A stretch of DNA of 64,000 nt, taken from positions 1 through 64,000 of the forward strand of contig JAIRYJ010000008.1 in assembly GCA_031267825.1 (NCBI GenBank). Direction: 5' to 3'. The translations under genes and the position numbers were made by a program. Under the pieces are notes generated by a model. It ran no database searches. It was not told where the DNA came from and saw only the letters and a list, made by a program, of their open reading frames with translations. This document shows positions 1,977-55,619 of this stretch, one piece after another; the stretch's first letter is position 1, and every line of letters begins with the position of its first letter. This stretch comes from Bifidobacteriaceae bacterium (lineage in GTDB: Bacteria > Actinomycetota > Actinomycetes > Actinomycetales > WQXJ01).

Positions 1977-3179
1977 ATGAGATCAGTCGAACTATTCGCC
2001 GGCGGCGGAGGGCTCACTTTGGGTACCCATCTGGCGGGTTTCAGCGCAGAGGTCGTCGCGGAATGGGACCAGTGGTGCTGCGACACCTTGTACCGGAACC
2101 AGACCGCCGGGCACCCCCTGGTTCAGGGCGCCGACATCAAGAACGGCGATGTCCGCGACATCGACTGGGCCGCCTACGAAGGAACGATAGATCTTGTCAG
2201 CGGCGGTCCTCCTTGCCAGCCTTTCAGCGGCGGCGGCAAAGGAATGGCGGCCTGCGATCCACGCGACATGTTCCCGGCAACGGCTGAGGTGATTCGCCAG
2301 ATCAGGCCGAAGGCATTCATCGTCGAAAACGTCCGAGGACTGACACGCCCAAAGTTCGCCGACTACTTCTCATACATCCAGCTCCGGTTGGCTCATCCTG
2401 AACTCGCACCGCTGGACGGCGAATCGTGGACGGAACACTTCTCCCGGCTGCAAGCCGAGCACACCTCGGTACGTCAAGACCTGTCTTACAACGTTGTGAC
2501 CACCGTCGTCAATGCCGCCGACTACGGCGTGCCACAGCAGCGCTGGCGAGTCTTTTTAGTTGGTTTCCGGTTCGATGTAGACGCCGAGTGGGCCTTCCCC
2601 GAACCGACTCATTCCGCTCAAATGCTGGCGCACAGCAAGGATGTGACCTCTGAGTACTGGGAACGCCACAAGATCGCCCTGAAGCAGCGCACAGAGCCCG
2701 TCGTCACCCCAAGGTTGTTTGAACTGCCTTCCGCCTCGCGCCCATGGCGAACTGTCCGGGACGCGATCTGTGACCTGCCGGAACCCACCTTGGATGGAAG
2801 CAAGACGGTCCTCAACCACGTTCTGCAAGAAGGAGCCCGGGCCTATCCAGGCCACACCGGCTCAAGCCTGGACCAGCCAGCCAAGGCACTCAAGGCGGGA
2901 GTTCACGGTGTCCCCGGTGGTGAGAACATGCTCCGCCGCAACGATGGCACTGTCCGTTACTTCACGGTCCGAGAGGCGGCCCGGCTCCAGACCTTCCCCG
3001 ACCGGTACACCTTGCACGGGCCGTGGAGCGAAGCGATGCGTCAACTCGGCAACGCTGTGCCAGTGATGCTGGCCCAGATCGTGGCCTCATCGGTGCATGA
3101 ACACCTCGCCCTGGCGAACCTGCGGGCTGAAGTCCTGGCCGCGCCCAGTCAATCGAAACGACTTGGAGCGCAAGCATGA
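1977..3179 (+). CDS. DNA (cytosine-5-)-methyltransferase, type II R-M
   Basis: This is a 400-aa C5-cytosine DNA methyltransferase. Motif I is VELFAGGGGLTLG (residues 4-16). Motif IV is GGPPCQPFSGGG with catalytic Cys80. Motif VI is ENVRGL (117-122). Motif VIII is QQRWRVFLVGF, and motifs IX-X (RYFTVREAARLQTFPD ... QLGNAVP) follow a ~100-residue variable target-recognition region. It protects host DNA from the endonuclease encoded immediately downstream, whose ATG overlaps the end of this gene (ATGA). Eco29kI-type partners recognise CCGCGG, so that site is a reasonable but unproven guess. Its last 76 bp are duplicated at 4720-4795. Confidence 0.95.
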   Translation: MRSVELFAGGGGLTLGTHLAGFSAEVVAEWDQWCCDTLYRNQTAGHPLVQGADIKNGDVRDIDWAAYEGTIDLVSGGPPCQPFSGGGKGMAACDPRDMFPATAEVIRQIRPKAFIVENVRGLTRPKFADYFSYIQLRLAHPELAPLDGESWTEHFSRLQAEHTSVRQDLSYNVVTTVVNAADYGVPQQRWRVFLVGFRFDVDAEWAFPEPTHSAQMLAHSKDVTSEYWERHKIALKQRTEPVVTPRLFELPSASRPWRTVRDAICDLPEPTLDGSKTVLNHVLQEGARAYPGHTGSSLDQPAKALKAGVHGVPGGENMLRRNDGTVRYFTVREAARLQTFPDRYTLHGPWSEAMRQLGNAVPVMLAQIVASSVHEHLALANLRAEVLAAPSQSKRLGAQA

Positions 3180-3784
3180 CAAGCGGGCCGTTTAGCCCAC
3201 TGGCTATGGAAAGCCTCGGCCACAGCATCGTCACCCGCATGATGGAAATGAACGCCATACCATTGGACGACGTTCCTCGATTCGCTGGTGCGGGGCTGTA
3301 CGCCATCTACTACCGTGGGCCGTTCCAGGCTTACTCGCTACTGGCGCAGGCAAACGGCGATCGGTCGGCTGTTCCTATCTACGTCGGCAAGGCAGCGCCG
3401 TCTGGGGCCAGAAAGGGCATTGATGTTGCTCAAACCTCCGCCTCTCACGCCCTCGCAGACCGTGTGCGACAGCACGCGGCGAGCATTCGCGCTGCTCAGA
3501 ACCTAGACATCACGGACTTCGACGCAAGATGGCTTGTGGTCGAGGACATCTGGATACCGCTCGGCGAGTCGGCCTTGATTCGGCAGCACCGTCCGGTTTG
3601 GAACGCGATTGTGGATGGCTTTGGAAATCATGATCCCGGCAAAGGGAGAATCAACGGGACGCGTCCACGGTGGGACACTTTGCACCCTGGGCGTCCCTGG
3701 GCCGACAAGTACCCGCAGCGGGACGAGACATCCGCCGAAATCGAGCAGGAGATTGAGGAATATCTCCGGTCCCGGTTGGCTTAG
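3176..3784 (+). CDS. Eco29kI-family GIY-YIG restriction endonuclease
   Basis: This 202-aa protein has the GIY-YIG nuclease arrangement: GLYAIYY (residues 40-46) and PIYVGKA (67-73), then R96/R98 and H100 in ADRVRQHA, E131 in LGESALIRQ, and N143 in RPVWNAI. These match the tyrosine pair, Arg/His, Glu and Asn of the Eco29kI active site as described for that family. It would cut unmethylated DNA, with CCGCGG as the family-typical target (inference). It overlaps the methyltransferase stop by 4 nt, so the pair is probably translationally coupled. It ends with a short acidic helix, SAEIEQEIEEYLRS. Confidence 0.9.
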   Translation: MTSGPFSPLAMESLGHSIVTRMMEMNAIPLDDVPRFAGAGLYAIYYRGPFQAYSLLAQANGDRSAVPIYVGKAAPSGARKGIDVAQTSASHALADRVRQHAASIRAAQNLDITDFDARWLVVEDIWIPLGESALIRQHRPVWNAIVDGFGNHDPGKGRINGTRPRWDTLHPGRPWADKYPQRDETSAEIEQEIEEYLRSRLA

Positions 3785-4929: not shown

Positions 4930-7848
4930 TCAGGTGGGCGGCCGTTCGGTTAGCACCGGCACCAGGTGGCGGTCACCGTAGGCCGCATCCACCCGGCCAA
5001 CTGGGGGCCAATACTTGCTGGCATTGAGCCCAGCCGGGTAGGCGCCCAACTGGCGCGAATAAGGCCTGGCCCAAGCGTCCCCAGTCACAGCCAAGGCGGT
5101 GTGAGGCGCCAAACGGGCCGGCGACTCAGCCAAAAGCCATTCACCAGCCACCACACGGTCAGCCTCGGCCACGATGGCGAGCATCGCATCGCAGAACCGG
5201 TCAAGTTCCGCCAGACTCTCCGACTCGGTTGGTTCAACCATCAAGCTGCCAGCCACTGGGAAAGACATAGTTGGGGCATGAAAACCGTAATCCATCAGTC
5301 GTTTCGCCACATCCTCAGCTGTCAGGCCGCTGCGGGCGGTCAAACCACGCAAATCAAGCAGGCATTCGTGAGCCACAAAGCCGCCCGGCCCACGGTAAAC
5401 AACCGGTAAGGCGTGACGCAGCCGGTGCGCCACATAGTTAGCGGCCGTCACCGCCACATCACTCGCCTGACGCAAGCCCGCACCGCCCATCAGCTTGATG
5501 TAAGTCCAAGAGATCGCCAGCAACAAGGGCGATCCGTAAGGCGCGGCCGAAACCGCCCCACCTCGCGTCGCTAAACCACCCAACGGGTGGCCCGGCAGGA
5601 AAGGCGCCAAATGAGCCCGGACCGCCACCGGCCCGACCCCCGGACCACCACCACCATGCGGCATGGCGAAAGTCTTATGCAAGTTGAGATGCGAAACGTC
5701 ACCACCAAATTGCCCGGCTTTGGCCCAGCCAGTCAACGCGTTGAAATTAGCTCCATCAATGTAAACCTGCGCTCCGGCCTGGTGCGCCAAGTCGCAAACC
5801 GTCTGGACAGACGCCTCATAGACGCCATGAGTTGACGGATAGGTGATCATCAGCGCACCAACCCGTCCGGCATGTTGCTCCAGTTTGGCCCGCAGATCCT
5901 CGAGCGACACATCGCCGTCCTGATCAACATCCACCCCAACAACCTGGTACCCGGCCAAAGCCGCCGACGCGGCATTAGTGCCGTGGGCGCTGACCGGAAT
6001 CAGGCAGATGTCGCGGCCCGGTTCACCCGCCGCCTGGTGGTAGCGCCTGATCGCCAGCAGCCCAGCCAGTTCACCTTGCGAACCGGCGTTAGGCTGAACT
6101 GACAAAGCCTCATAACCGGTCAGTTCCAGCAGGTAATCACCCAATTGGCGGATCAATTCCAAAGTGCCACGGGCGCAATCCCGTGGCACGAAGGGATGCA
6201 AATCACCGAACCCCGGCCAGCTTAAAGCCGCCATCTCACTAGCCGCGTTCAACTTCATGGTGCACGAACCAAGCGGAATCATGCCCCGATCCATGGCGTA
6301 GTCACGGTCCGCCAAGGACTTCAAGTAGCGCATCATCGCCAACTCGGTGCGGTGCTGGCTGAACACGCCATGCGTCAAGAAAGGCGTCCGTCGGGGGGCC
6401 GGGCCGCCGACGCACGATTCGCCTAGTTCGCCCGCGTCACCGCCGGTTACGTCCGCCTGACCGGAAGGCTGGGATCCGGACGATGCCGCCGGGACAATTG
6501 GGTCGGCATCGGCCAGTTGAGTGGCACGCGTCTGAGCCGCCGCGTCACCGCCAAAAGCCGCCACCAAGTGGCGGATGTCCTCGCCGGTGGTGGCTTCATC
6601 GGTCGAAAAATAGACCGTGTCGCCGTCCTGCTGCCAAAGGTGCAGGCCACGGCCGCGTGCCGCCCGCACAATACTGGCCGCCTGGCCCGGGCAGTCAACC
6701 GCCACCGTGTCAAACAGAGGCCCCGGGCGCGGAGCCAAACCGTCAACGCCGTCCAAGACCTGACGCAACGCCAAGGCTTGCGAATGGATCCGTCCGGCTA
6801 TCCGTGCCAAACCATCCGGCCCATGCCAGGCGGCATACATCGCTGCCATCACAGCCATCAAGACTTGAGCGGTGCAGATATTGGAGGTCGCCTTGTCGCG
6901 CCGGATGTGCTGTTCGCGCGTCACCAGGGCGAGCCTGAGGGCGGGTGCACCGGCCGAATCGACGCTTTGGCCGACCAGCCTGCCAGGCATCTGGCGGACG
7001 AAATCCTGGCGCACCGCCATGTAGGCGGCATGCGGCCCGCCGAAACCTAGCGGCTGGCCGAAACGCTGAGTTGAACCTACGCAAATGTCCGCGCCGACTT
7101 CACCAGGCGGTTGAAACAATGTCAGCATCAGCGGATCAGCCGCGACCGCCAATAAGGCTCCAGCCTGGTGGGCTAGCTGGGCTAGTGGAGCCAAGTTGAC
7201 GGCCCGGCCACTAGCGCCCTGATATTGGACATAAAGTCCGGCCGCAGCGGTCATCTTTGAAGGGTCAGGCCGCAGCGGGTCAAACCAGACCAGTTCAATC
7301 CCGAGTGGTTCAGCCCGGGTCTCAAGAACCGCTTTGACCTGCGGAAAAACGTCAACATCAACCGCCAAGCGGGTCTTCTTGCCCCGCCCTACGCGGTGAC
7401 ACAAGGTCATCGCCTCAGCCGCTGCGGTGGCCTCATCAAGCAGCGAAGCGTTAGCCACAGGCAACCCAGTCAAATCAGCCACCATCGTTTGGAAGACAAG
7501 CAACGCTTCTAGCCGCCCCTGTGAGATTTCAGCCTGATACGGCGTGTAAGCGGTATACCAGGACGGGTTCTCCAAAACGCAGCGCTGGATGACCGCCGGA
7601 ACCAAGCTGCGGTAATAACCCAAACCGATCATTGACCGGCCAGGCTGGTTCAGGGCGGCTAGCTGGCGCAACTGGTCTGATGCTTCAGCCTCAGTCAGGG
7701 CGGGCCCCAGTGGCGGTACCGGGGACTGTAAGGCCGGTGGTAAGGCTTGCTCCAGTAGGGGACGGTCAGGGTCAAGACCTAATTCTTGACGGACAGCGGC
7801 TAACGTGTCTGGTCCCAGGCCGATGTGGCGGGCGGCGAATTGGTTCAT
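4930..7848 (-). CDS. gcvP: Glycine dehydrogenase (decarboxylating), P protein
   Basis: This 972-aa P protein of the glycine cleavage system decarboxylates glycine with pyridoxal phosphate and passes the aminomethyl group to the lipoyl arm of GcvH. Both halves of the long fused form are present: FAARHIGLG at the N-terminus and, in the C-terminal half, SLNLHKTFAMPHGGGGPG-type sequence with the PLP lysine at K725. IPLGSCTMKLN and the glycine-rich QPNAGSQGE are also typical. Length fits the single-chain P protein. It is the last gene of gcvT-gcvH-gcvP, 56 nt after gcvH. A 40-residue Gly/Ser/Pro-rich insertion near residue 455-490 looks like a linker between the halves. Confidence 0.97.
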   Translation of the reverse strand: MNQFAARHIGLGPDTLAAVRQELGLDPDRPLLEQALPPALQSPVPPLGPALTEAEASDQLRQLAALNQPGRSMIGLGYYRSLVPAVIQRCVLENPSWYTAYTPYQAEISQGRLEALLVFQTMVADLTGLPVANASLLDEATAAAEAMTLCHRVGRGKKTRLAVDVDVFPQVKAVLETRAEPLGIELVWFDPLRPDPSKMTAAAGLYVQYQGASGRAVNLAPLAQLAHQAGALLAVAADPLMLTLFQPPGEVGADICVGSTQRFGQPLGFGGPHAAYMAVRQDFVRQMPGRLVGQSVDSAGAPALRLALVTREQHIRRDKATSNICTAQVLMAVMAAMYAAWHGPDGLARIAGRIHSQALALRQVLDGVDGLAPRPGPLFDTVAVDCPGQAASIVRAARGRGLHLWQQDGDTVYFSTDEATTGEDIRHLVAAFGGDAAAQTRATQLADADPIVPAASSGSQPSGQADVTGGDAGELGESCVGGPAPRRTPFLTHGVFSQHRTELAMMRYLKSLADRDYAMDRGMIPLGSCTMKLNAASEMAALSWPGFGDLHPFVPRDCARGTLELIRQLGDYLLELTGYEALSVQPNAGSQGELAGLLAIRRYHQAAGEPGRDICLIPVSAHGTNAASAALAGYQVVGVDVDQDGDVSLEDLRAKLEQHAGRVGALMITYPSTHGVYEASVQTVCDLAHQAGAQVYIDGANFNALTGWAKAGQFGGDVSHLNLHKTFAMPHGGGGPGVGPVAVRAHLAPFLPGHPLGGLATRGGAVSAAPYGSPLLLAISWTYIKLMGGAGLRQASDVAVTAANYVAHRLRHALPVVYRGPGGFVAHECLLDLRGLTARSGLTAEDVAKRLMDYGFHAPTMSFPVAGSLMVEPTESESLAELDRFCDAMLAIVAEADRVVAGEWLLAESPARLAPHTALAVTGDAWARPYSRQLGAYPAGLNASKYWPPVGRVDAAYGDRHLVPVLTERPPT

Positions 7849-44705: not shown

Positions 44706-47700
44706 TTAGTCGGTGGCGAAGCCGAGGCTGGATTGGTCGAACTTCAGCGTGCGGGCGTTTTCGCTGATGGTGCGGACTTCCGCCTCGGTGAAGCCTTTGG
44801 GTCGCCTAGCTTGAATGTCGATGATGATGTCCAGTTCAGTGTCGGCACCGGCCAGGCGGTCCAAGATTTCACGTTGAACGTTGCCCATGTCGCGGGCGTA
44901 GCGCGTCGGGTCAAGGCGGACCTGGCCGAAGAAGCGGACGCGTGGGAATTCAACCTCGGCCGCGACTTCGACTGGTACACCCGGCAGCACGATGTCGACC
45001 GGCAGGGTTGTGCCGCCAGCGCCTAGTTCACTGCCGTCGGTTCCAGGTGACGTGTCTGGCGGGTCGGCGCCAGGTATCGGTTCAGGTTCAGCGACGTGCT
45101 CAGCTTCGAACTGTGCCATGGCGACAGCCCAGTCCACCAGGAGTGTCTGGTCTGTCACATGGACGGCCGCGACGTTGGGGTTTGGCGGAATAATCAGGCC
45201 ACGGTATCGCTGGCCGGCTTGGTCGTAGCCGCTGGCAATGGCGAAGCGTTCGTCGCCTACCAGCAGCGCGCCCGCCGCGTCACGGACAGCTTGGTCTAAT
45301 ACGGCCCGGCGGGTCAGGCGTGGCAGGTAGGGGTAACGGGTGAAGTAGCTCCAGACTTCTCCCACCGAAATATGGGCGCCCTGCCAGGCCGGCCTCAAAA
45401 CGCCGTTGAGTTCGGCGCCAAGATAGGTTGGGCCGAGGTCGGGGAACAATTGGCGCAGACGGTTGACCAGGCGGTCAGACACCCGCTGGGCGAGCGACTT
45501 TCCTGTTGAGTCTGGGACACGTTCGGTAACCAACTCGAAAGGTCGGGTCGGATCTGGTTGGGACGGATACAAGCACCAGACGAACGTGTCGCGCAACCGA
45601 TCGTTGGCGACTTGGTTGTTCCGTGCGACTGAATCGTCGGCTTGCCGTTTCTGCTGGGCTGTCAGGTTCATCTGCTCGCACTGAGATTGGACCAGCTTCC
45701 AACCCAGGTACGCGCGTACGCTGGATTCGAGTGACTCCAGAGCGTCCCGGTCAGCCACCAGGAAGATCAGGGAGTTGCGATGAGTTCTCTGGGCCGAGCC
45801 ACGGGTCTCCAACGCCTGGCGGACCGACTGGTGCGTGCCTGATTCGGAGCCGTCACCCCTGAGCACCGAGTGACGGGGATGGACAATGACGAGCCGGGTC
45901 TCCTCAAGGTCCGGGATGTCACCTGATGATTCCGGCGCGATGTGAACCCGGTCAAATTCACCCCGGGAGCGCTCCTCTGACCGCAGCCGGGTGACTATCT
46001 CGTTCCAGACGGTGTCTGGGTCTTCGCGTAGCCGTTCAGCGTAATCGGAGGCGGTTTTCGTGACGGATGCTTGGGTGTCGAACCAGTAGTGACCCGAGTC
46101 GGCGTAGAAGTAGGTTGACTCCTGTTCCATCGCGTCCAACGCGGCGCCGAAGTTCCCTAGCGCGTCGCCGGGGACGGCGGTGCCAAGCCAGACGTACTGC
46201 TTGTCCAAACCTTTGCGGGCTGATCGCGACCGGGGCGCCGCACCCATGAAGACTGTCCGGGCTATCCGGCGCGTGACGTGCCGAGAGCCGAGGGAAGATT
46301 TGGTGTTGTCGATCCGGGCGGCGGTCGCCTGTGGGCCGTCAATATCGCCGTCGATGATTGGCCTCCACGAATCCTCTAAGTACTGCGTCAGGTCCGTGTT
46401 GACAGTGGTCGCCGCCAACGGCACATTACCCGGCAGGATCAGCGGCGATGTGTCTCCCTCAGCCCACAGTTCGTGGACGACGGATGAGATCAGCTTCAGC
46501 ACGCCACGAGTCCGCTGGAAACGTTCCAGCGCCGACCAATCCTCATATAGCCGGTCGAGTAGTTCAGGATGCAGCGGATAGGAAGCCTTGATACGAGCCT
46601 CATAAGAGGTTCCCGGCTGAGAAACATGACGCGGGAATTGCGACTGGTTTTCCCGGTACATCGTCACGAACTTACGGGCCGTCGCCGCGATTGACGCCAG
46701 CCCATCAGCGCCTGGTGTCTGGAACAGACGGCGGCGAACAATCTCGAACGATTCGTCCTTGCTCGAAGGCCGCCACTGGTCGGCTTTGCGGCGAATCACA
46801 TTCTGCAGTCGGCGCAGCGCCTCGTGGCCGTTGGTGCCGCCGATTTCGATGTCGTTGCCTTTTCTTTCACCCGAATCTGAGGCCGGGATAGACACCACCA
46901 GCATTGTGCCGGGCACCGATTCGACCGTCTCGGTCAAGGTTTGGGCGAAGGTGAACTGAGTGTCGAACGATCCGCCTGGTAGGCCGTCTTTACCCACCAG
47001 GTCACGGGCGTAAGCCACCCACTCGTCGATCAGGATCAGCGCCGGGCCGTATTTCTCCAGCAGGGTCTGAAGTGCGCTGCCAGGGTTCGTCCCGGCGGCA
47101 TCATCGGCCGCCACCAGCGCGAAACCTTCCTTACCGCCAAGCTGCCAAGCCAATTCGCCCCACACGGTGCGCACCTCAGTGCCGTCGTCTTTTACTGACG
47201 CCGACCCGGCTTTCATCCGGTTACCAACTATGGCGACCCGGCGAACCGGCGTTCCCCTCAGGCCTGCGGCACCGGCTTTGACGATCAGTTCTTGGAGTTC
47301 CTGCGGGAAAGACGTCACCGGGGTGTCGCCGAACAGGTGGTACAGCGCCAGCATCGAGTGGGTCTTGCCGCCGCCAAAGTTTGTCTGGAGGTTGACTATT
47401 GGACTGGCTGATCCGTCGCCAACTATGCGGGTCAGCGCCCGATTCAGCAGGTCACGTAGACCTTCGGTCAGGAAGGTGCGGTTGAAGAACTCCACCGGAT
47501 CGGCGTATTCCGGCGCGGTGGCCAGTCCCTGCGCCACTTGATGCAGGTCGGCGGCGAATTCCGCGGCCGTGAATTGACCCTGGGCCACATCATTGTGCGG
47601 TTGGATAACCTCACGCCATGGTTTCATGCCCAACGTGCCCGGCACCGAAATGGCTCCGATCGCTGGTCGGCGTGTCTGCTGCCGGGCCTGTTCCGAGACC

Positions 47701-48128
47701 ACGGTGGCTTGTAGATCGAGGCGCAGTTTGCGGACATCTTCAGCTGAATCTGGGGCGTTGACGGCCAGCAACAGCCGTTCCATCGTGTCCAAGGCTCTAA
47801 TCGTGTCATCCGAGGAAAACGGTTCGGAATGCGCCCACAGGTTCCTAGTTTCACGCAGTTCTGAGGCGTAAGCCTGTTGCGGACGCGACAGGATCGAAGC
47901 GAATTCCCGGCCGAACTCGGTGATGGCGCGCAGCAAGATCAGAGCGTCATTCTTGGAGTAGGTCTTGGGGGGTGTGCCGTGTCTTAGGGCGTCGCGTGCC
48001 GCCCACAACTCATTCCAGTCGGATTGGTTACCGAAGACCTGCCGCATTACATCGTCTACCGGGTCGGTCAGTCCTTCAACTAGAAGGTCGAATCCTTTGC
48101 CAACTCGGTCTCGGTTATTCATAGCCAT
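44706..48128 (-). CDS. HEPN-DUF499 AAA+ ATPase
   Basis: This ~1140-aa protein has an N-terminal Swt1-like HEPN domain (residues ~10-125) with the putative RNase motif R95-NLWA-H100 in ETRNLWAHSEPF. The DUF499 ATPase follows, with Walker A NFGGGKTHSM (K255), ALILIDEWVAYARDL as Walker B, and the long helical DUF499 C-terminal part. I chose the ATG at 48128 (GGGAG upstream); a longer frame to 48197 would overlap the methyltransferase end. DUF499 ATPases travel with DUF1156 methyltransferases in predicted defence clusters; here the two are neighbours. Confidence 0.88.
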   Translation of the reverse strand: MAMNNRDRVGKGFDLLVEGLTDPVDDVMRQVFGNQSDWNELWAARDALRHGTPPKTYSKNDALILLRAITEFGREFASILSRPQQAYASELRETRNLWAHSEPFSSDDTIRALDTMERLLLAVNAPDSAEDVRKLRLDLQATVVSEQARQQTRRPAIGAISVPGTLGMKPWREVIQPHNDVAQGQFTAAEFAADLHQVAQGLATAPEYADPVEFFNRTFLTEGLRDLLNRALTRIVGDGSASPIVNLQTNFGGGKTHSMLALYHLFGDTPVTSFPQELQELIVKAGAAGLRGTPVRRVAIVGNRMKAGSASVKDDGTEVRTVWGELAWQLGGKEGFALVAADDAAGTNPGSALQTLLEKYGPALILIDEWVAYARDLVGKDGLPGGSFDTQFTFAQTLTETVESVPGTMLVVSIPASDSGERKGNDIEIGGTNGHEALRRLQNVIRRKADQWRPSSKDESFEIVRRRLFQTPGADGLASIAATARKFVTMYRENQSQFPRHVSQPGTSYEARIKASYPLHPELLDRLYEDWSALERFQRTRGVLKLISSVVHELWAEGDTSPLILPGNVPLAATTVNTDLTQYLEDSWRPIIDGDIDGPQATAARIDNTKSSLGSRHVTRRIARTVFMGAAPRSRSARKGLDKQYVWLGTAVPGDALGNFGAALDAMEQESTYFYADSGHYWFDTQASVTKTASDYAERLREDPDTVWNEIVTRLRSEERSRGEFDRVHIAPESSGDIPDLEETRLVIVHPRHSVLRGDGSESGTHQSVRQALETRGSAQRTHRNSLIFLVADRDALESLESSVRAYLGWKLVQSQCEQMNLTAQQKRQADDSVARNNQVANDRLRDTFVWCLYPSQPDPTRPFELVTERVPDSTGKSLAQRVSDRLVNRLRQLFPDLGPTYLGAELNGVLRPAWQGAHISVGEVWSYFTRYPYLPRLTRRAVLDQAVRDAAGALLVGDERFAIASGYDQAGQRYRGLIIPPNPNVAAVHVTDQTLLVDWAVAMAQFEAEHVAEPEPIPGADPPDTSPGTDGSELGAGGTTLPVDIVLPGVPVEVAAEVEFPRVRFFGQVRLDPTRYARDMGNVQREILDRLAGADTELDIIIDIQARRPKGFTEAEVRTISENARTLKFDQSSLGFATD

Positions 48129-48177
48129 CGGTGGCTCCCGCCGTTCACAAGACCAGCTTGCCGCATCAAGGTGACGT

Positions 48178-51006
48178 TCACAGGCTATTTGGTCCAAAGT
48201 CGAGTGTGAGTTGTTCAGAACGTGGCACGGCGGCCTGTTTGCGGGCTTGCGTGGTCAAATCACTCCAGGACGTGACCAAGCCGTTGAACAGCAACGCGTC
48301 ACCAGCGTCGCCTTTCTTTTCGGCGTAGTGGAACAGCATCACGCCGAGTTCTTTCACGCCGTCAAGTGACACCTTGGATCCGACGGCAGGGAGCAGCGCC
48401 GCGACTTGATACGCGCCTTGTTTACCCATGACGGCCGCTAGGCGCACCAGCGCCTCCCACAAGCTGACCCGTTCGTCCTTCTCAACGTCCCATTCGCCGT
48501 TCAGTTCGCGGGGTGAAAGCAGGCGGGCTTTGCCTCCTTTAGCTTCGAAGATCCCGCCACGTTCCAGCGCCCCTACCGAAGTGTCACTCGAACGGGAGAG
48601 TTGATCCGCGATGCCCGATGCCGCCGTCCCCCACCCGTACTGCCGGTACCATTTGGCAGCGAAGCGAGTATCAGGGTCGAAGTCGGCTTCTTGCTCGTCG
48701 ATCACCTCGTCGAGGGTTTGGTTGATCAGCAGCAAAGCGTCACGCACCGACATGTCTGAGCCGTCCGCCTCCCGTACCCGCGAATAGCGCGAGAAGATCG
48801 ACATGCCAGGCCCAATCGCCGCCTGAGCCAAATCCACCGGTGCGATATCGCTGCGAACCATGGCCCGCAGCGCACCAGGCAACTCCAACCGCAACAAGTC
48901 AAGGAACCGTCGCGCCGTAATCGCGCAGGCCTCCTCGGGTCGCGGCCGACAAGCCAAGACAATCGACGACGCCAAAGCGTTAGATTTCAAGTCACGCATG
49001 CGTCCAGGACGTTCACTGCGCACCGGCCAAGTGGCGGTAATCTCCCAGCCCGCGCTGACCAGGCCGTCCAACAGCGTGTGCCAGCCGGTCGATGCCGTGC
49101 CATCAGTTCCAGCATCTTGTTGTTTATAGGCGTAGTAAACAGTCATGGGCACGTCCCAGGTGGCCGTCTCCCGGATCCGCGCGAACACTTGGTTGAATCC
49201 ATCGACAAAGAACCTCTCGGCGCCGACCTTGTCTCCATGACGGTAAGGGTTCGCGACAAGTTCGGCGGCTTTGGGCACCAACATGGTCGAAAACAGCCTG
49301 GGTAACACGTCCTCAAGCGAACGCCGCAGCCACACATAGAAGAAGTCCGATAGATCTGAATACCCGATGTTGTCGTAGTACGGAGGGTCGGTCGACACCG
49401 CGATACCGGGGTAGGACTGGGCATCCGCATCGACTTGATAAGCCATCCCCTGCGAAGCGGCAGGCAGTCGCTCCAAAACGCGCGCTACCCAGTCGACCTG
49501 GCCGAGAATGTTTCCCCCCGCAACCGCGAGAGGGTTGGTTTCCACGTAATCCCAGATCATTGAGATTGCTTGGCGAGTGAACATGTGGGCAGCGAATTCC
49601 CCCTTCGGAACCCAAGAGCACATAGCGTTGCACAGGTCGGCAACTCGGTCGACGGCCATGCCCAGGTATGTGGCGACAGCGTCTGCGTAGGCGGCGGCGT
49701 CCGTGCCGCCGCCTACCAGTTGAGTGCCTTCCGGCGAGCCAGAGTCAAGGGCGTCTCGCAGAGCCTGCTGGCGGGCCTCAGGCACCAGGTCGCAGAATGT
49801 GGTCATCGCCACCAACTGCCGATTCGTGAACAAGTCAGCCCAATGGGTCATGCCATAATTCTGGACCCGGAATCCGAGCGCCGCCTCAGGCAGCTCCTGG
49901 TCAGGGACGTGATCTGGGCGGGGCACCGCTGCTGTCGTGGCCTGATCCGCTGTCGGGCTGAGGTACAGACGTTCGCGTTCGCCCTCAGCCACGACGGCGA
50001 TCATATGCGCGCCCATGCGTCCCGCCCGGGCCTCCTGGCGGATGTACTCCAGGCTGATGGGGGTCCCATCGGCGATCGAAATGGCTCCCGTCCGGCTGAC
50101 TGTACCGTCAGCAGCGCCAACCGGCCCGGCGGCATCGTACATCACCTGGTAGCGGACCTGGCCGTCAACGACTTCGGCGCTAACCCAGGCTTCCTTACCC
50201 TTCTTCTTGCCCAACCACCACGAACTGACCAACGGGACCTCGATCGGGTTGGCCGGGTTGGGCGACCGCACCGTCCGCGCCCAAATCCAGGCGATCACCC
50301 TGTGCTCCTTGCCGTCCGGCCCCTTGACCTTGGGATACAGGTGGCCGATGCGCCGATAAGCCTCGTCACGCATCCATTGGCCGTAGTAGCGCACATCCTC
50401 GGCCAGGCCCTCAGCTCGCTGCCAACCGCCCACGCGATCCTCCGCGCCAGGATGAACCGGTGGGCGGCCGGCGAACTTGGGCGGGATCTCAATCAGCGCC
50501 TTATTGATCAGCACAGCGACCGGATTCAAGTCAGAAGCGTGCGCCTCCAATCCCAGACGCTGGGCCTCCAGCGGAATGGTGCCACCACCGGCGAACGGGT
50601 CCAGCACGGCCGGTAGTTCGCCGCCGTTGGACTTCTTGATCTCCTCTTGGGCCATGGCAAATAACCGCTGACCGCTGACCGTGCGGCCCTGGCTCGGCAG
50701 AGCGATACCCTGAGCGCCAGGAGCGGTGTTCTCCCACTTCACCAGCGCCTCAATCAATTCGTGCAGCCGGGCACGCTCCGCGTCCTGGGCCTCCTGGGTT
50801 GGGAACTCCTCTGGACGCGCCGAAGGATCATCCACAAGCTGGGCGAAAAGAACGGCGCGGGCGGTGGCCAGCGGACGCCGCGCCCACCACAAGTGCAGGG
50901 TTGAAGGATGCCCATGGCGAATCGACTTCTCCCGGGCCGATTCGGCGTTGATCGTCTCCAGCGGCAACCCAACCTCGATCAGCTTCTTCTTGCGCTGCTC
51001 AGACAT
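48178..51006 (-). CDS. DUF1156 DNA methyltransferase
   Basis: This 942-aa predicted adenine-specific (N6/N4 amino) DNA methyltransferase opens with KKLIEVGLPLETINAESAREKSIRHGHPSTLHLWWARRPLA, the DUF1156 signature. AdoMet motif I is D136-PFAGGGTIPLEA and catalytic motif IV is D540-PPYYDNIGYSDLSDF. It presumably marks host DNA so the helicase/ATPase partners spare it (inference from DISARM/BREX-like logic). The ATG has AGGAGG 6 nt upstream. The repeated hairpin array separates it from the DUF3800 gene, so it may have its own promoter. Confidence 0.92.
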   Translation of the reverse strand: MSEQRKKKLIEVGLPLETINAESAREKSIRHGHPSTLHLWWARRPLATARAVLFAQLVDDPSARPEEFPTQEAQDAERARLHELIEALVKWENTAPGAQGIALPSQGRTVSGQRLFAMAQEEIKKSNGGELPAVLDPFAGGGTIPLEAQRLGLEAHASDLNPVAVLINKALIEIPPKFAGRPPVHPGAEDRVGGWQRAEGLAEDVRYYGQWMRDEAYRRIGHLYPKVKGPDGKEHRVIAWIWARTVRSPNPANPIEVPLVSSWWLGKKKGKEAWVSAEVVDGQVRYQVMYDAAGPVGAADGTVSRTGAISIADGTPISLEYIRQEARAGRMGAHMIAVVAEGERERLYLSPTADQATTAAVPRPDHVPDQELPEAALGFRVQNYGMTHWADLFTNRQLVAMTTFCDLVPEARQQALRDALDSGSPEGTQLVGGGTDAAAYADAVATYLGMAVDRVADLCNAMCSWVPKGEFAAHMFTRQAISMIWDYVETNPLAVAGGNILGQVDWVARVLERLPAASQGMAYQVDADAQSYPGIAVSTDPPYYDNIGYSDLSDFFYVWLRRSLEDVLPRLFSTMLVPKAAELVANPYRHGDKVGAERFFVDGFNQVFARIRETATWDVPMTVYYAYKQQDAGTDGTASTGWHTLLDGLVSAGWEITATWPVRSERPGRMRDLKSNALASSIVLACRPRPEEACAITARRFLDLLRLELPGALRAMVRSDIAPVDLAQAAIGPGMSIFSRYSRVREADGSDMSVRDALLLINQTLDEVIDEQEADFDPDTRFAAKWYRQYGWGTAASGIADQLSRSSDTSVGALERGGIFEAKGGKARLLSPRELNGEWDVEKDERVSLWEALVRLAAVMGKQGAYQVAALLPAVGSKVSLDGVKELGVMLFHYAEKKGDAGDALLFNGLVTSWSDLTTQARKQAAVPRSEQLTLDFGPNSL

Positions 51007-51078
51007 ACGTCCTCCTACTCTTGACCGCCTGGGCCGATCCGCCGGACGGCCCGGCTATCCCCGCGTTAGTCTGGCTGC

Positions 51079-51345
51079 ACACGTAAATCCCTCGTCGCAG
51101 GGGCTCCGCATGGTTCCCCAGAAAGGCGGCGAGGGTTGTGGACCTTCGCGAGACCCAGACGTCTGGGCTACACTGCTGGAACACGTAATTCCCCTGCCGG
51201 GAGGCTCCGTAGTGTTCCACAACAAGAATGGCAAGGGTTGTTGACACTGGCGTTAGCCCAGGCACTTGGGCTACACTGGTGGGACACGTAAATCCCTCGT
51301 CGCAGGGGCTCCGCATGGTTCCCCGGAAAGGCGGCGAGGGTCGTG
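51079..51345 (-). repeat. Tandem ~102-bp hairpin repeats inside the defence operon
   Basis: Units begin (plus strand ACACGTAA) at 51079, 51181 and 51284. Units 1 and 3 are nearly identical over 60 bp; unit 2 is diverged. On the minus strand each contains a long hairpin, CCCTCGCCGC ... GCGACGAGGG, in units 1 and 3, with an inner GGGG/CCCC stem. In unit 2 it is CCCTTGCC ... GGCAGGGG, where base changes on one arm are matched on the other. A second hairpin, AGCCCA-N6-TGGGCT or CCCAGACGTCTGGG, follows in the two complete units. The pattern suggests a conserved RNA or single-strand DNA structure. Confidence 0.8.
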
Positions 51346-51351
51346 TTCTTT

Positions 51352-51990
51352 CTAGGCGACATCGACCACCCTCAGATCCAAGGAACGGACCAGGCTGGAG
51401 AACGTGGCGTCGCCGTGTTCAAACTCGTGGAAGAAGCTCCACGACAAGAAGTCGGCCGCCTGGAGGCCCTTATCTGCGCTGGGCCGCAAAATGTCGACCT
51501 GCGGGTCCAGTCCTCTGGCGTCTGCTGCGGCCGCCACATCAGCGCGGAAGTGCTCGTTCAACAAGCGGTTTGTCTCCCTGCGGGAGGCGACTAGCCGAAC
51601 TGCCCCAGCTTCTTCAGATGTAGCGACGTTTGTCAGTTCGGCCACGGCCAAGTTGGCCAAACGAATATAGATGGCGTGCTGGTCTGCCCCGCTCGCGGCA
51701 GCCTGCTGCTTGTTGAGACGCAACACAACGACTTGACCGTCCAGCCGGGCTAGACGGGTCAGGAGGCGGCGAACCGTCGCGGCATCCTCTCTCACCGCGT
51801 GCAAGACGCCGTGGCGAGCCTTTACCTGGGCCTTCGGCATGCTTCGGAAAACTGCCTTGACAGCTTTCTGGACTGCGCGAGGGTCAAGCGTGGCGAACCC
51901 CGTCATGAGGAAGTGCCGCGATGTCTTGGCCTTGGTGAAATCGAAGCCCAGGTCGCCTGATTCGTCCAGATACACGGTGGTGGTGGTCAT
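51352..51990 (-). CDS. DUF3800 protein of the defence island
   Basis: This ~212-aa protein starts TTTTVYLDESGDLGFDF, the DUF3800 signature with an acidic DES/G/D cluster resembling an RNase H-like fold, and ends QAADFLSWSFFHEFEHGD, whose acidic residues would complete a metal site. A nuclease role has been suggested for the family but is not proven. The ATG at 51990 overlaps the helicase stop as ATGA, so it is translationally coupled to it; a longer frame to 52026 exists but is less likely. Confidence 0.85.
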   Translation of the reverse strand: MTTTTVYLDESGDLGFDFTKAKTSRHFLMTGFATLDPRAVQKAVKAVFRSMPKAQVKARHGVLHAVREDAATVRRLLTRLARLDGQVVVLRLNKQQAAASGADQHAIYIRLANLAVAELTNVATSEEAGAVRLVASRRETNRLLNEHFRADVAAAADARGLDPQVDILRPSADKGLQAADFLSWSFFHEFEHGDATFSSLVRSLDLRVVDVA

Positions 51991-54900
51991 CGGGGCGGAC
52001 CACCCCGGGGCCAATGGGCGGCCCACTTCTCGCCAAACCTTGCCGTGGTTGCGTCCGCGGGCAGGTGATCCAGGCTGCCTGTGACGTAGCGCAACTCGTC
52101 CTTGGCGGGGTCATCAGGGTCAACCGCCACCAGTGCTAGTCGGTGGCGGTCACCCTGGTTTTGGGCGGTGGCGACCTCACGGTTCGTGATCTCGAATTCA
52201 CGAGCGCCCTTCAGGTAACCCTTAACCTCAATGTAGAAAACCCGGCCATCCTGGTCAGTGGAACGGATATCGTAACCGGGATTGTAGTGGTCCATCTCCT
52301 CTGGGAAGCGCCCGAGCGCACGCTCAGCGGCCATCACCAGATCGACGGCACGGCGTTCCGATTCCTCGGTTTCGCGGATGTCCTCAAGCTTCGCGCCAGG
52401 AAGCGGAGATTGTTCGCCGGGCCCCAGAAGCGGCGCCGGTGTGAGCTGAGCCAGCAGGCGGCTTGGGATGACCAAAGCTTGGCCCCGGATGTGGGCCGGA
52501 AGTTCGACCAACTGGGTGGCCTGGTCTAGTTCAGCCAACCGACGCTCCAGGCGCAGTTCGCATTGCCGTGCTTTGGCCAGGGCCATCTCAGGGCTCCTCC
52601 TCAGCGGCTTGCCCTGACGTTGAAGCTCAACCAGCCGGTTATACTCGCCGTCCCAGTAATTAACCTCGGCGTTGAGCCGCTGAACCACTTGAGGGCGGAC
52701 CCTCGCGGCGCCGGCCGTGATCCTCGTAACTAGTTCTTGTTTGCGTGGCTGGAGGCCGTGGCGGTAAGCCCAAAGCTTGATGACGGCATCGTTCTCCGCC
52801 CTAACCCAAGGCTCCTGAACCACCTTGGCGATGGCCGCCGACTCACCCACATCCGGGGCGTCATAGTCAAGGTATGGCGGAGCCAGCGTGACAGCGGCGT
52901 GGCCGTCCGGATCCAACTCCACGTAATCGAAGTGGCGCGACACCGTCAGGTGACCGGGCGTCTCAATCCGCTGCTCAAGCGCGAACAGCATCGACGGCCG
53001 GCTGGTTTGAGTCTCGCGGCGGTCAACGAATACCGTGCCCTGCGACAAGACATCCGCTAAGTCCTCAATGGTCAAATCAATCACAGCCCGCAACAGCGGG
53101 TGACCAGGAGCCAACAGGGCCGCGTCCGCCGGATACGCCCAACTATCGGTCTGAGAAGGACGGACATGCTTGGTCTCGAACGTGACGCGCTCATATTCTT
53201 CCGGCAGCGGTTTCCAACGGTTGACGCGGCGGGCCTGATCCCGGACGCGTTTAGGGACGCGGCTGATCTGATACCGGCCCGTCTCACGCTGACGGATCAT
53301 CCCTCCAAGGCCACGAAAAGCCGGAATGAACAGACCCCTTATGTAGCCAGGTTGGAGCTTGCGTTCACGCGCCTTCTCCATCTGGCGACGCACCTCTTCC
53401 AGGTCCAACCCAGGGAACATCTCGGGATGCAAAGCCCGTTCCCGCAGAATTTCCTCCAGGCCGTCGGCATAGCTAGCGTCGATAGTCTGGTTGAGTCTGG
53501 CGCGAACCTCAGGCCGGTCCCCATACAGGATCGCCTCCATCACCAAGTCCTTGAGCGAGTGCCCCCGGAACGCGTCGCGATCTCCCAGCACATTGAATAG
53601 GTTGCCGTTGTAAGCCTTGCCCTGCTCGGTGATCTTGTCCAAGAGCCGCCTCAAGACCGCACCCTCGCGGGTGTCCTCCGCCACCAGGTTCCAAAGCTGG
53701 CAGACCTCGCGTTGACCAATACGGTGGATGCGCCCGAAACGCTGTTCAATGCGATTCGGGTTCCACGGCAGGTCGTAATTCACCATCAGATGTGCCCGCT
53801 GGAGGTTCAAGCCTTCTCCGGCGGCATCGGTGGCGAGTAACACGATCACGTTCGGGTTGTCCGTAAACCGCTCGCGCGCTAGTTTGCGGTCCTCCCGGCT
53901 GGTGCCGCCGTGGATAGTGACGATGGCGTGATCCCCGACCACCGCTCCGATCCTGTCAGACAGGTAGCCCAGCGTGTCGCGGTGCTCAGTGAAGATGATG
54001 ATCTTATGCGGACTGCCGGTGGCGTCGCTGGTTAGAACCTCGTCTTGGAGGATCGCCCGGAGTTGCACCCATTTTTCGTCCGTGTCCTGGTTCCGGACCT
54101 GGCGGGCGGTGGCGACAAGGCCATCAAGCACACCAATCTCAACACGCAGTTCCTCGACCGTCCGCGCCGCCGTGGCCAAGTCGACGACCTGTTCGACCTG
54201 CTCCTCCAAGCGGGCCTGGTCGTCTTCGGTGATGTCGTCATAAAGGTCGTCGAAGTCATCCGGATCGAAGCTGGGCATGGTTGGGTTGTCCTGGGCGGCA
54301 AGGCTCCTCCCAGCTAACGCGGCCCGGTCGGTCCCGGAAAAGGCGGCCCGATCCGTCCCGGAAAAGGCGGCCCGGTCCGCGGCGCGAACCATGTCCCTGA
54401 GGCGGTCCTGGAGCCGGGCTTGGCGGCGCTCCAGTGAACGCAGGATCGCTTCCGGGCTGGATGCCAACCGGCGTTGCAGAACGGTCAGCGCGAAACCGAT
54501 GTTGTTGCCGCGTTTCTTCTCGCCTGCGGCCGTGATCTGGTCAGCCTTCCCCATCTCGGTTCGGACATACGCGGTGACCTGCTCGTACAGCTCACGCTCA
54601 GCGCTGGACAAGTCGTACGCGACGGTATAAGCCCTGCGCTCCGGGAACAGTGGCTTACCGTCAAAGGTCAACATCTCTTCCTTGGTACGGCGAATCATCA
54701 GGCCCCCGGTGTCTGTTTGGTGGACACCTTGGCGGAATTGTCCCTCGAAGCGGTCTGGGTCCAACAGCGACATGAATACCTGGAAGTCCTCTTCCTTGCC
54801 CGCATGCGGTGTGGCCGTCATCAACAAGTAGTTCTGGGCCGTGTCAGACAGTATCCGGCCCAACTGGAAGCGCTTAGTCTCCTTCAGTTCTTGTCCCCAA

Positions 54901-55619
54901 TAGTGGGCCGACATCCGGTGAGCTTCATCAACAACGGCAAGATCCCAGGTCACATCCCGAAGCTGCTCCTGGAGGTCCTCGTCACGGGACAATTGGTCCA
55001 TCCTGGCGATCAGATAAGGATGCTCCAAGAACACATTGCGCCCAGCGGCGTCAACGACCATTTGGCGGGAGAAGACCTCAAACCAGAGGTCGAACTTCGA
55101 AGCTAGTTCCTCCCGCCACTGTTCCACCAGGCCGCCCGGGGCTACGATGATCGCCCGCTCGCAATCGGAACGCAAGATCAGTTCTTTCAGGTACAAACCC
55201 GCCATGATCGTCTTACCCGCACCCGGATCGTCCGCCAGGAGGTAACGCAGTGGAACCTTAGGCAGAAGCTCCGAATAGACCGCCTCTATCTGGTGTGGCA
55301 GAGGTTCCACATCCGAAGAGTTGACCGCGGCCATTGGGTCATACAGGGCGGCGTACTTGATCCGCAACGCCTCGGCCGCCAGCCGAAATTGACTAGCGTC
55401 TCCATCAAACCCTGGTCCCGTTACTGTCGCCAACCTCAAGGACTCCGCCTGTTCGGCGGACACATATCGCTGGTCGAGGCGGTCTTGCCCGTCGTAGAAC
55501 ACGACGTGCGTGACGTCCACATCCAAAGGCCTAGCCGAAACGATGGTTGCGACCTGGCCTGGGACCAGTCCCTGGACACGCGCGCCGGGTTTCAGCGCAT
55601 CAAAATCGACCTCAGCCAA
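51987..55619 (-). CDS. SNF2-type helicase with DUF3883 domain
   Basis: This 1210-aa superfamily 2 helicase has Walker A DDPGAGKTIMAGL (K136), Walker B VVDEAHRM (D231), SAT-type MTATPHAGKEED, and the C-terminal lobe FTEHRDTLGYLSDRIG ... LLATDAAGEGLNLQRAHLMVNYDLPWNPNRIEQRFGRIHRIGQ. A C-terminal DUF3883 domain (GYDIRSTDQDGRVFYIEVKGYLKG, nuclease-like E-x-K) ends it. The start is a TTG with GAAGGA 9 nt upstream. A linker near residue 410-440 contains a tandem DRAAFSGT repeat. It is the leading large gene of the island. Confidence 0.92.
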   Translation of the reverse strand: MAEVDFDALKPGARVQGLVPGQVATIVSARPLDVDVTHVVFYDGQDRLDQRYVSAEQAESLRLATVTGPGFDGDASQFRLAAEALRIKYAALYDPMAAVNSSDVEPLPHQIEAVYSELLPKVPLRYLLADDPGAGKTIMAGLYLKELILRSDCERAIIVAPGGLVEQWREELASKFDLWFEVFSRQMVVDAAGRNVFLEHPYLIARMDQLSRDEDLQEQLRDVTWDLAVVDEAHRMSAHYWGQELKETKRFQLGRILSDTAQNYLLMTATPHAGKEEDFQVFMSLLDPDRFEGQFRQGVHQTDTGGLMIRRTKEEMLTFDGKPLFPERRAYTVAYDLSSAERELYEQVTAYVRTEMGKADQITAAGEKKRGNNIGFALTVLQRRLASSPEAILRSLERRQARLQDRLRDMVRAADRAAFSGTDRAAFSGTDRAALAGRSLAAQDNPTMPSFDPDDFDDLYDDITEDDQARLEEQVEQVVDLATAARTVEELRVEIGVLDGLVATARQVRNQDTDEKWVQLRAILQDEVLTSDATGSPHKIIIFTEHRDTLGYLSDRIGAVVGDHAIVTIHGGTSREDRKLARERFTDNPNVIVLLATDAAGEGLNLQRAHLMVNYDLPWNPNRIEQRFGRIHRIGQREVCQLWNLVAEDTREGAVLRRLLDKITEQGKAYNGNLFNVLGDRDAFRGHSLKDLVMEAILYGDRPEVRARLNQTIDASYADGLEEILRERALHPEMFPGLDLEEVRRQMEKARERKLQPGYIRGLFIPAFRGLGGMIRQRETGRYQISRVPKRVRDQARRVNRWKPLPEEYERVTFETKHVRPSQTDSWAYPADAALLAPGHPLLRAVIDLTIEDLADVLSQGTVFVDRRETQTSRPSMLFALEQRIETPGHLTVSRHFDYVELDPDGHAAVTLAPPYLDYDAPDVGESAAIAKVVQEPWVRAENDAVIKLWAYRHGLQPRKQELVTRITAGAARVRPQVVQRLNAEVNYWDGEYNRLVELQRQGKPLRRSPEMALAKARQCELRLERRLAELDQATQLVELPAHIRGQALVIPSRLLAQLTPAPLLGPGEQSPLPGAKLEDIRETEESERRAVDLVMAAERALGRFPEEMDHYNPGYDIRSTDQDGRVFYIEVKGYLKGAREFEITNREVATAQNQGDRHRLALVAVDPDDPAKDELRYVTGSLDHLPADATTARFGEKWAAHWPRGGPPR

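Follow-up and report, generated by a model that had tools for sequence, protein, structure and literature searches.

What does a short tandem array of hairpin-forming repeats do inside a bacterial defence operon: is it an RNA, on which strand is it read, and which protein does it serve? These questions are raised by a locus in the window, by which we mean the whole stretch of 64,000 nucleotides analysed here from a Bifidobacteriaceae bacterium. The motif ACACGTAA begins there at positions 51079, 51181 and 51284, with a period of 102-103 bp, and the array so formed sits between a DUF3800 gene (51352-52026, minus strand) and the DUF1156 gene hmaB (48178-51006, minus strand). An original prediction, made from the letters alone, had placed three units of about 102 bp here and had noted stems that in the middle unit differ in sequence yet still pair; the units and the claimed stems are all present. 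Over 77 nt, the first and third units (51079 and 51284) share 90% identity, which marks them as a recent duplication, such that the two count almost as one; judged by its sequence, the window by itself holds only two independent versions of the unit. Moreover, the energy of folding is no better than that of shuffled sequences (z -0.20 for the minus strand, -0.97 for the plus strand). Single-sequence folding is therefore uninformative, and the case rests on comparative evidence.

The operon that hosts the array is a complete Hma system, with hmaA (SNF2-type helicase, 51987-55619; PADLOC HmaA, 1249 bits), hmaB (DUF1156 adenine methylase; PADLOC HmaB, 1108 bits, and Pfam DUF1156) and hmaC (Swt1-HEPN plus DUF499 ATPase, 44706-48197; PADLOC HmaC, 848 bits, and Pfam) together in the window, all on the minus strand. 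The Hma system was proposed in one study (PMC8565338) and is treated as BREX-related in another (PMC12839542), which cites an experiment in support of a phage-defence role for HmaA. Nothing similar to DUF3800 and its RNA is present in most hma loci. The slot between hmaA and hmaB is empty, with a gap of about 40-120 nt, at two of the loci (L014, L016) and in plasmids of Paenarthrobacter, Arthrobacter, Microbacterium and Rhodococcus; it holds a DUF1016/YhcG nuclease at L013, and an Abi_2 gene with motifs ahead of it at L017 (210-1512), L018 (4308-5449) and L119 (3366-4510), the last from a genome (G011) of the same genus as the window. Ahead of Abi_2 lie CGGCCCTCTACC...GGCCGGTC motifs, two in L119, two in L017 and one in L018. 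Those of L017 and L018 score below the Rfam gathering thresholds, and it is position and shape that point to their kinship with abiF RNA; the motifs are probably unlisted actinobacterial abiF-type RNAs. Since in relatives the slot is empty, or filled by AbiF with RNA motifs, or by DUF1016, DUF3800 and the array are best described as an optional protein-RNA cargo module of the hmaA-hmaB slot. On a Microbacterium plasmid (L137, 8265-10041), an IS3-family transposase interrupts hmaB.

How far does the unit extend beyond the window? The original prediction had named related loci and a covariance model as the places to look. Among 80 hmaB loci fetched as a comparison set, two carry the unit: L015, where DUF3800 is followed by two units, and L012, with one unit ahead of hmaB. 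A covariance model (R1) built from the six copies of the window, L015 and L012 returned no unit from the 80 loci beyond those used to build it; in the whole genome of L012 (G297) it found one further unit, outside the training set (E 4.8e-11), on another contig (L127) after hmaA and DUF3800. A search of the family of G297 yielded two more single units, in G748 (E 1.8e-16) and G818 (E 4.1e-12), making three found blind by the six-copy model. The unit is known from five actinobacterial genomes, in nine copies in all. The gene order hmaA-DUF3800-units-hmaB is present in three of these genomes (the window, L015 and G297), and the distance from the DUF3800 stop codon to the unit is near constant (CTAGA junction). 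By eye, an IS30-like transposase is divided over two contig ends of G297 (L127, 1-140; L012, 1-120), one with its N-terminal and the other with its C-terminal part, from which we infer one operon, hmaA-DUF3800-unit-(IS)-unit-hmaB-hmaC, that the insertion appears to split inside the RNA array. The DUF3800-proximal units have conserved apical loops of the GGYUCCGYAYGGUUCC type. The hmaB-proximal units of L015 (834-1029) and L012 (133-220) share a loop type unlike that of the DUF3800-proximal units; with two types of loop, the array seems to have had two types of unit before the duplication in the window.

No units beyond those named turned up in 395 genomes of the class, 99 relatives and 392 genomes of another order, under stricter filters and with few candidates scored per genome, such that some copies may be missed; plasmid and phage collections held no DNA match to the array. 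The unit is rare and patchy. Weak model matches in three genomes were set aside as chance (a leader-like stretch ahead of a phosphate-binding-type gene in G038, a terminator-like hairpin behind a pilin-like gene in G037, and a match with a long insertion in G022), as were exact-motif matches in viral contigs, apparently in coding sequence.

With nine units in hand, the claim that pairing is under selection could be put to shuffles and to column slides. Across the nine units, 12-15 cells are changed on both sides against shuffled means of 4.0-4.5, none of 500 shuffles reaching as high, and in the model-fitted alignment double changes fall in 10 of 17 pairs (15 cells; shuffled mean 4.5); such tests are inflated by relatedness, and these same sequences supplied part of the structure, so the weight lies on the slides and the blind finds. 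With a MAFFT alignment in plus-strand reading, pairing holds in 92.0% of cells overall and in 97.5% of those of the main stem, five of whose nine pairs have changed at both positions. A shift of the partner by 1-3 columns lowers the paired cells from 92% to 41-53%. Retained pairing despite sequence change, first suspected from the window, is thus borne out by double changes above shuffled levels and by the collapse of pairing under slides.

The original prediction had read the units as a small structured RNA of the minus strand. The RNA remains the best reading, but the strand does not: plus pairs better, and carries the promoter-like boxes and U-rich tails. Models R1 and R2 were likewise built on the minus strand, and the switch to plus was prompted by wobble counts, -10 boxes and the orientation of DUF3800-IX, a known sRNA family. 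If minus were correct, the RNA would form part of a polycistronic hma mRNA processed into hairpin units, a reading in keeping with the co-directional genes and with covariation that is visible on the minus strand too; moreover, 4 of 152 cells (G-U) fit minus only. Set against these are nine cells that fit plus only (140 of the 152 cells are paired on the plus strand, as against 135 on the minus strand), and in four units C-A mismatches on the minus strand become U-G pairs on plus. Raw folding energy also favours plus in eight of the nine units, and the alifold energy is -46.6 for plus and -40.0 for minus, with mixed shuffle z-scores. The boxes and tails make sense on plus only, and the Rfam families DUF3800-V and -IX have the orientation contrary to a minus-strand RNA, which we regard as improbable.

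All nine units carry TAnnnT on the plus strand, 7-8 nt ahead of the invariant CACGT, a placement expected by chance in 0.8-4.6% of cases per unit (shuffled upstream sequence). The motif looks like a -10 box and is suitably spaced for transcription to begin at the A or C of ACACG. The nine units share no conserved or recognisable -35 element, and a consensus scan found no sigma-70 site. Units adjoining DUF3800 have U-rich tails behind the stem on the plus strand (TTGTGTTTTTCTAG, TTGTGTGTTTCTAG, TCGTGTTCTTTCTA and TTGTGTTCTGTCTA), the final bases of which are complementary to the stop codon of DUF3800, and inner units have no strong U tail. Pairing counts, -10 boxes, tails and the orientation of known DUF3800 sRNAs together favour an RNA that is probably transcribed from the plus strand, convergent with the operon.

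Read in this direction, the window holds three putative sRNA genes. The DUF3800-proximal unit A (51284-51354; covariance model R3, 87.4 bits) has its -10 box TACACT at 51272-51277, 7 nt ahead of CACGT, its main stem at 51293-51340 (plus-strand pairing in 92% of cells over the nine units) and its tail TCGTGTTCTTTCTA at 51341-51354, which continues into the bases that complement the stop codon of DUF3800. The middle unit B (51181-51246; 79.4 bits), with a diverged stem that keeps its pairing, and the hmaB-proximal unit C (51079-51145; 80.9 bits), a near copy of A, have boxes from the same TAnnnT scan, TACACT at 51169-51174 and TAGTCT at 51067-51072, respectively. The predicted RNAs would start at about 51079, 51181 and 51284 and measure some 65-75 nt, in place of the species of about 100 nt first envisaged. 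The second hairpin claimed for the complete units is not supported as part of the RNA: both of its dyads are in the sequence, but they cover -35/-10 regions and are unconserved in relatives. AGCCCA-N6-TGGGCT (51255-51272) lies in that region of unit A and the perfect dyad CCCAGACGTCTGGG (51154-51167) in that of unit B; each might be an operator, a possibility to be set beside the finding that neither sequence nor spacing is conserved at the other unit-bearing loci.

Tandem dyads could also suggest that the array acts as DNA, its hairpins being binding or cleavage sites for DUF3800 or for a mobile element with no functional RNA, and the IS30-like element that interrupts the array in G297 could be taken the same way. 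However, a genome-wide search found the array at a single place in its own genome, without further copies, which also rules out a dispersed repeat of the REP or MITE kind, and the G-U pairs and the strand-specific asymmetry of promoter and tail indicate RNA; a purely DNA-level element is thus highly improbable. Nor is the array a CRISPR array, as entire units in the window are homologous and structured, with no spacer pattern.

Is there any precedent for such an element? The original prediction knew of none, and here it fell short, as DUF3800-associated sRNAs are an already described kind, of which Rfam DUF3800-V and -IX are examples. The DUF3800 motifs were reportedly first described by Weinberg in 2017. 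DUF3800-I and -IX are mentioned for Rfam 15 (PMC11701678). Four Rfam sRNA matches were met in passing at other DUF3800 loci. DUF3800-IX (RF02968) lies at L143 (1098-1166, minus), 13 nt past a plus-strand DUF3800 gene (locus 471-1166), and at L118 (plus strand, 1099-1167; 36.1 bits, a little under the 36.8 cut-off), where it abuts the end of a DUF3800 gene on the minus strand (locus 1099-1797). DUF3800-V (RF02964) lies at L134 (minus strand, 3643-3741), where it overlaps DUF3800 (plus strand, 2992-3660) at its end and has TATAAT just ahead of it and a U run behind, and at L146 (minus strand, 2708-2806), where it abuts DUF3800 (plus strand, 2040-2708). In all four loci the RNA is directly 3' of the DUF3800 gene, on the opposite strand and convergent with it, and the window array has the same geometry, its strand being deduced from sequence. 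As in the window units, these short structured RNAs end near or in the 3' end of DUF3800; DUF3800-V ends in a run of U, and the apical CCGUAUGG hairpin of DUF3800-IX resembles CCGCAUGG of the window units. Unlike the window units, both have other internal loops and another closing motif, and at the four loci they are single, whereas the window units are tandem and inside an Hma operon. A cmscan of the window, L012, L015, L127, L132 and L133 found no Rfam 15 DUF3800 family at the units even at a permissive E value, with positive controls matched at L134, L143 and L146; DUF3800-I (RF02969) was absent from 246 genomes of the phylum, but from the controls too, such that its absence carries no weight. 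With no Rfam family matching, the units form a new family within the DUF3800-sRNA kind, to which they belong as a conserved, covarying structured RNA adjoining DUF3800 in the three genomes with the shared gene order. The family itself, the repetition in tandem with a promoter-like box for every unit, and the location within Hma are undescribed in Rfam 15 and the open-access literature searched. Together, the window array and DUF3800 look like a known but unexplained kind of nuclease-plus-small-RNA pair.

The original prediction had assigned the RNA to the defence system at large; its partner is probably the DUF3800 cargo gene and not the Hma core, given that hma loci without DUF3800 are also without the array and that two units stand as orphans away from every detected hma locus. 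The same facts bear on whether the array needs a protein partner at all. Placed exactly between DUF3800 and hmaB, convergent and with promoter-like boxes, it could be a cis-acting regulator, its plus-strand transcription and hairpins limiting read-through from DUF3800 to hmaB or serving as an antisense terminator. Such a role sits poorly with the absence of the array from hma loci that lack DUF3800, with orphan units away from hma, and with DUF3800-IX and -V sRNAs of the same geometry outside the Hma operon, and we think it very unlikely. An array of convergent sRNA genes partnered with DUF3800, by comparison of these loci, is the likely reading.

What kind of protein is DUF3800? Its gene (Pfam PF12686) probably starts at the ATG at 51987, overlapping the hmaA stop codon, which suggests translational coupling. 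An AF2 model (pLDDT 78) has RNase HII as its best structural match (Foldseek E 2.6e-5), with an alignment of Z 13.5, 2.8 A and 166 residues, well above unrelated rows. No ToxN-type chain is among the matches listed for the model, an absence that alone leaves a ToxN/AbiQ fold possible. Two other DUF3800 proteins are 41 and 48% identical to that of the window, and LDESGDLGFD and a late GLQA-D are invariant across them, DESGD lying in the first strand. We take the DE pair of that strand to correspond to the position of the DEAG motif of RNase HII. DUF3800 is accordingly predicted, from the model, to be an RNase H-type nuclease.

How might the RNAs act on such a protein? We propose that three tandem genes on the plus strand, convergent with the operon, would each produce a structured sRNA of about 65-75 nt from its own -10 promoter, starting at about 51079, 51181 and 51284. 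Each RNA would form a long hairpin with interruptions, in which CAC/GUG closes around the loop GUAAUU/UU, and in the DUF3800-proximal unit a U-rich, terminator-like tail would bring the RNA to its end exactly at the stop codon of DUF3800. The sRNAs would bind DUF3800 and keep the nuclease inactive, as do the RNA antitoxins of type III or AbiF systems, with tandem promoters and three copies supplying RNA in excess over the operon-expressed protein; were the short-lived RNA to run out, for example because a phage shuts off transcription in the host, the nuclease would be released. The conserved structured unit, its close link with DUF3800, the promoter-like and tail features of the plus strand, the RNase HII fold of the model and the behaviour as cargo are what the comparisons show; the production of three short RNAs, their binding to DUF3800, inhibition, and release on failing RNA supply are the inferred parts. 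As a whole, a plus-strand sRNA array and DUF3800 as a cargo module with the sRNAs holding the nuclease inactive is the account we favour on balance. Its weakest step is the antitoxin step, and the inhibitory role, drawn by analogy, is tentative and may well not hold.

The analogy has clear bounds. Type III toxin-antitoxin systems (ToxIN, AbiQ, TenpIN, CptIN) likewise have tandem structured RNA repeats beside a nuclease-like protein, but their antitoxin arrays are 5' of the toxin on the same strand, whereas in the window the array follows DUF3800 on its 3' side and is read towards the gene; its units are also longer, each with its own promoter-like box, and for its protein the model predicts an RNase HII fold, where theirs has the ToxN fold. 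AbiF and its motifs similarly form a module of protein and repeated RNA, one that occupies the same hmaA-hmaB slot in L119, L017 and L018, and in Clostridioides difficile AbiF is neutralised by a non-coding RNA with two abiF motifs, which acts as the antitoxin (PMC12373285). Unlike the window array, however, abiF RNA is 5' of its gene and on the same strand, and Abi_2 is unrelated to DUF3800, the neighbour of the array.

Alternatively, the convergent sRNAs could be guides or activating cofactors of DUF3800, used to recognise phage nucleic acid or to assemble an active complex. The predicted RNase HII fold with its invariant DESGD first strand would suit such a role, DUF3800 proteins adjoin Cas12a2 systems (PMC10910872), and the apical loops vary between units around a constant closing motif. 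However, the units have no variable spacer-like segment, and the conserved apical loops of the DUF3800-proximal units are ill-suited to a programmable guide, such that this role seems unlikely. More speculative still would be to cast DUF3800 as an RNA-dependent immune effector, a nuclease of the RNase HII fold that carries one of several RNAs of about 70 nt, themselves promoter-driven, and that Hma systems have captured as a plug-in module in which tandem units are alternative specificities; we give this rather little credence. DUF3800-associated RNAs have been catalogued for years without an assigned function, and the window locus offers a testable frame for them: a uniform geometry, in which a convergent sRNA gene with its own -10 box ends at the DUF3800 stop; a partner with a predicted RNase HII fold; and a new family in tandem, in a defence-operon slot that alternates with AbiF and its RNA, a shown toxin/RNA-antitoxin pair. 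Were the RNA-DUF3800 pairing true, it would add a new fold to the RNA-controlled defence nucleases, and the convergent layout of DUF3800-V and -IX at L143, L118, L134 and L146 is possibly general.

A counter-point to the partnership comes from the orphan units of G748 (L132) and G818 (L133), which persist where DUF3800 is undetected, although these assemblies may be incomplete and L133 looks decayed. At L133 (594-980), a DUF1016 remnant (E 4e-10) and bases of a DUF3800 3' end are followed by an intact unit with compensatory stem changes of its own; by eye, about 36 of the 41 bases directly before the unit are like the 3' end of the G297 DUF3800 gene, which speaks for linkage of the unit to DUF3800. 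At L132, the single unit (7744-7829) lies about 115 bp from a tRNA-Val(cac) gene, and could be what is left of an integrated island, or an antidote RNA that acts by itself.
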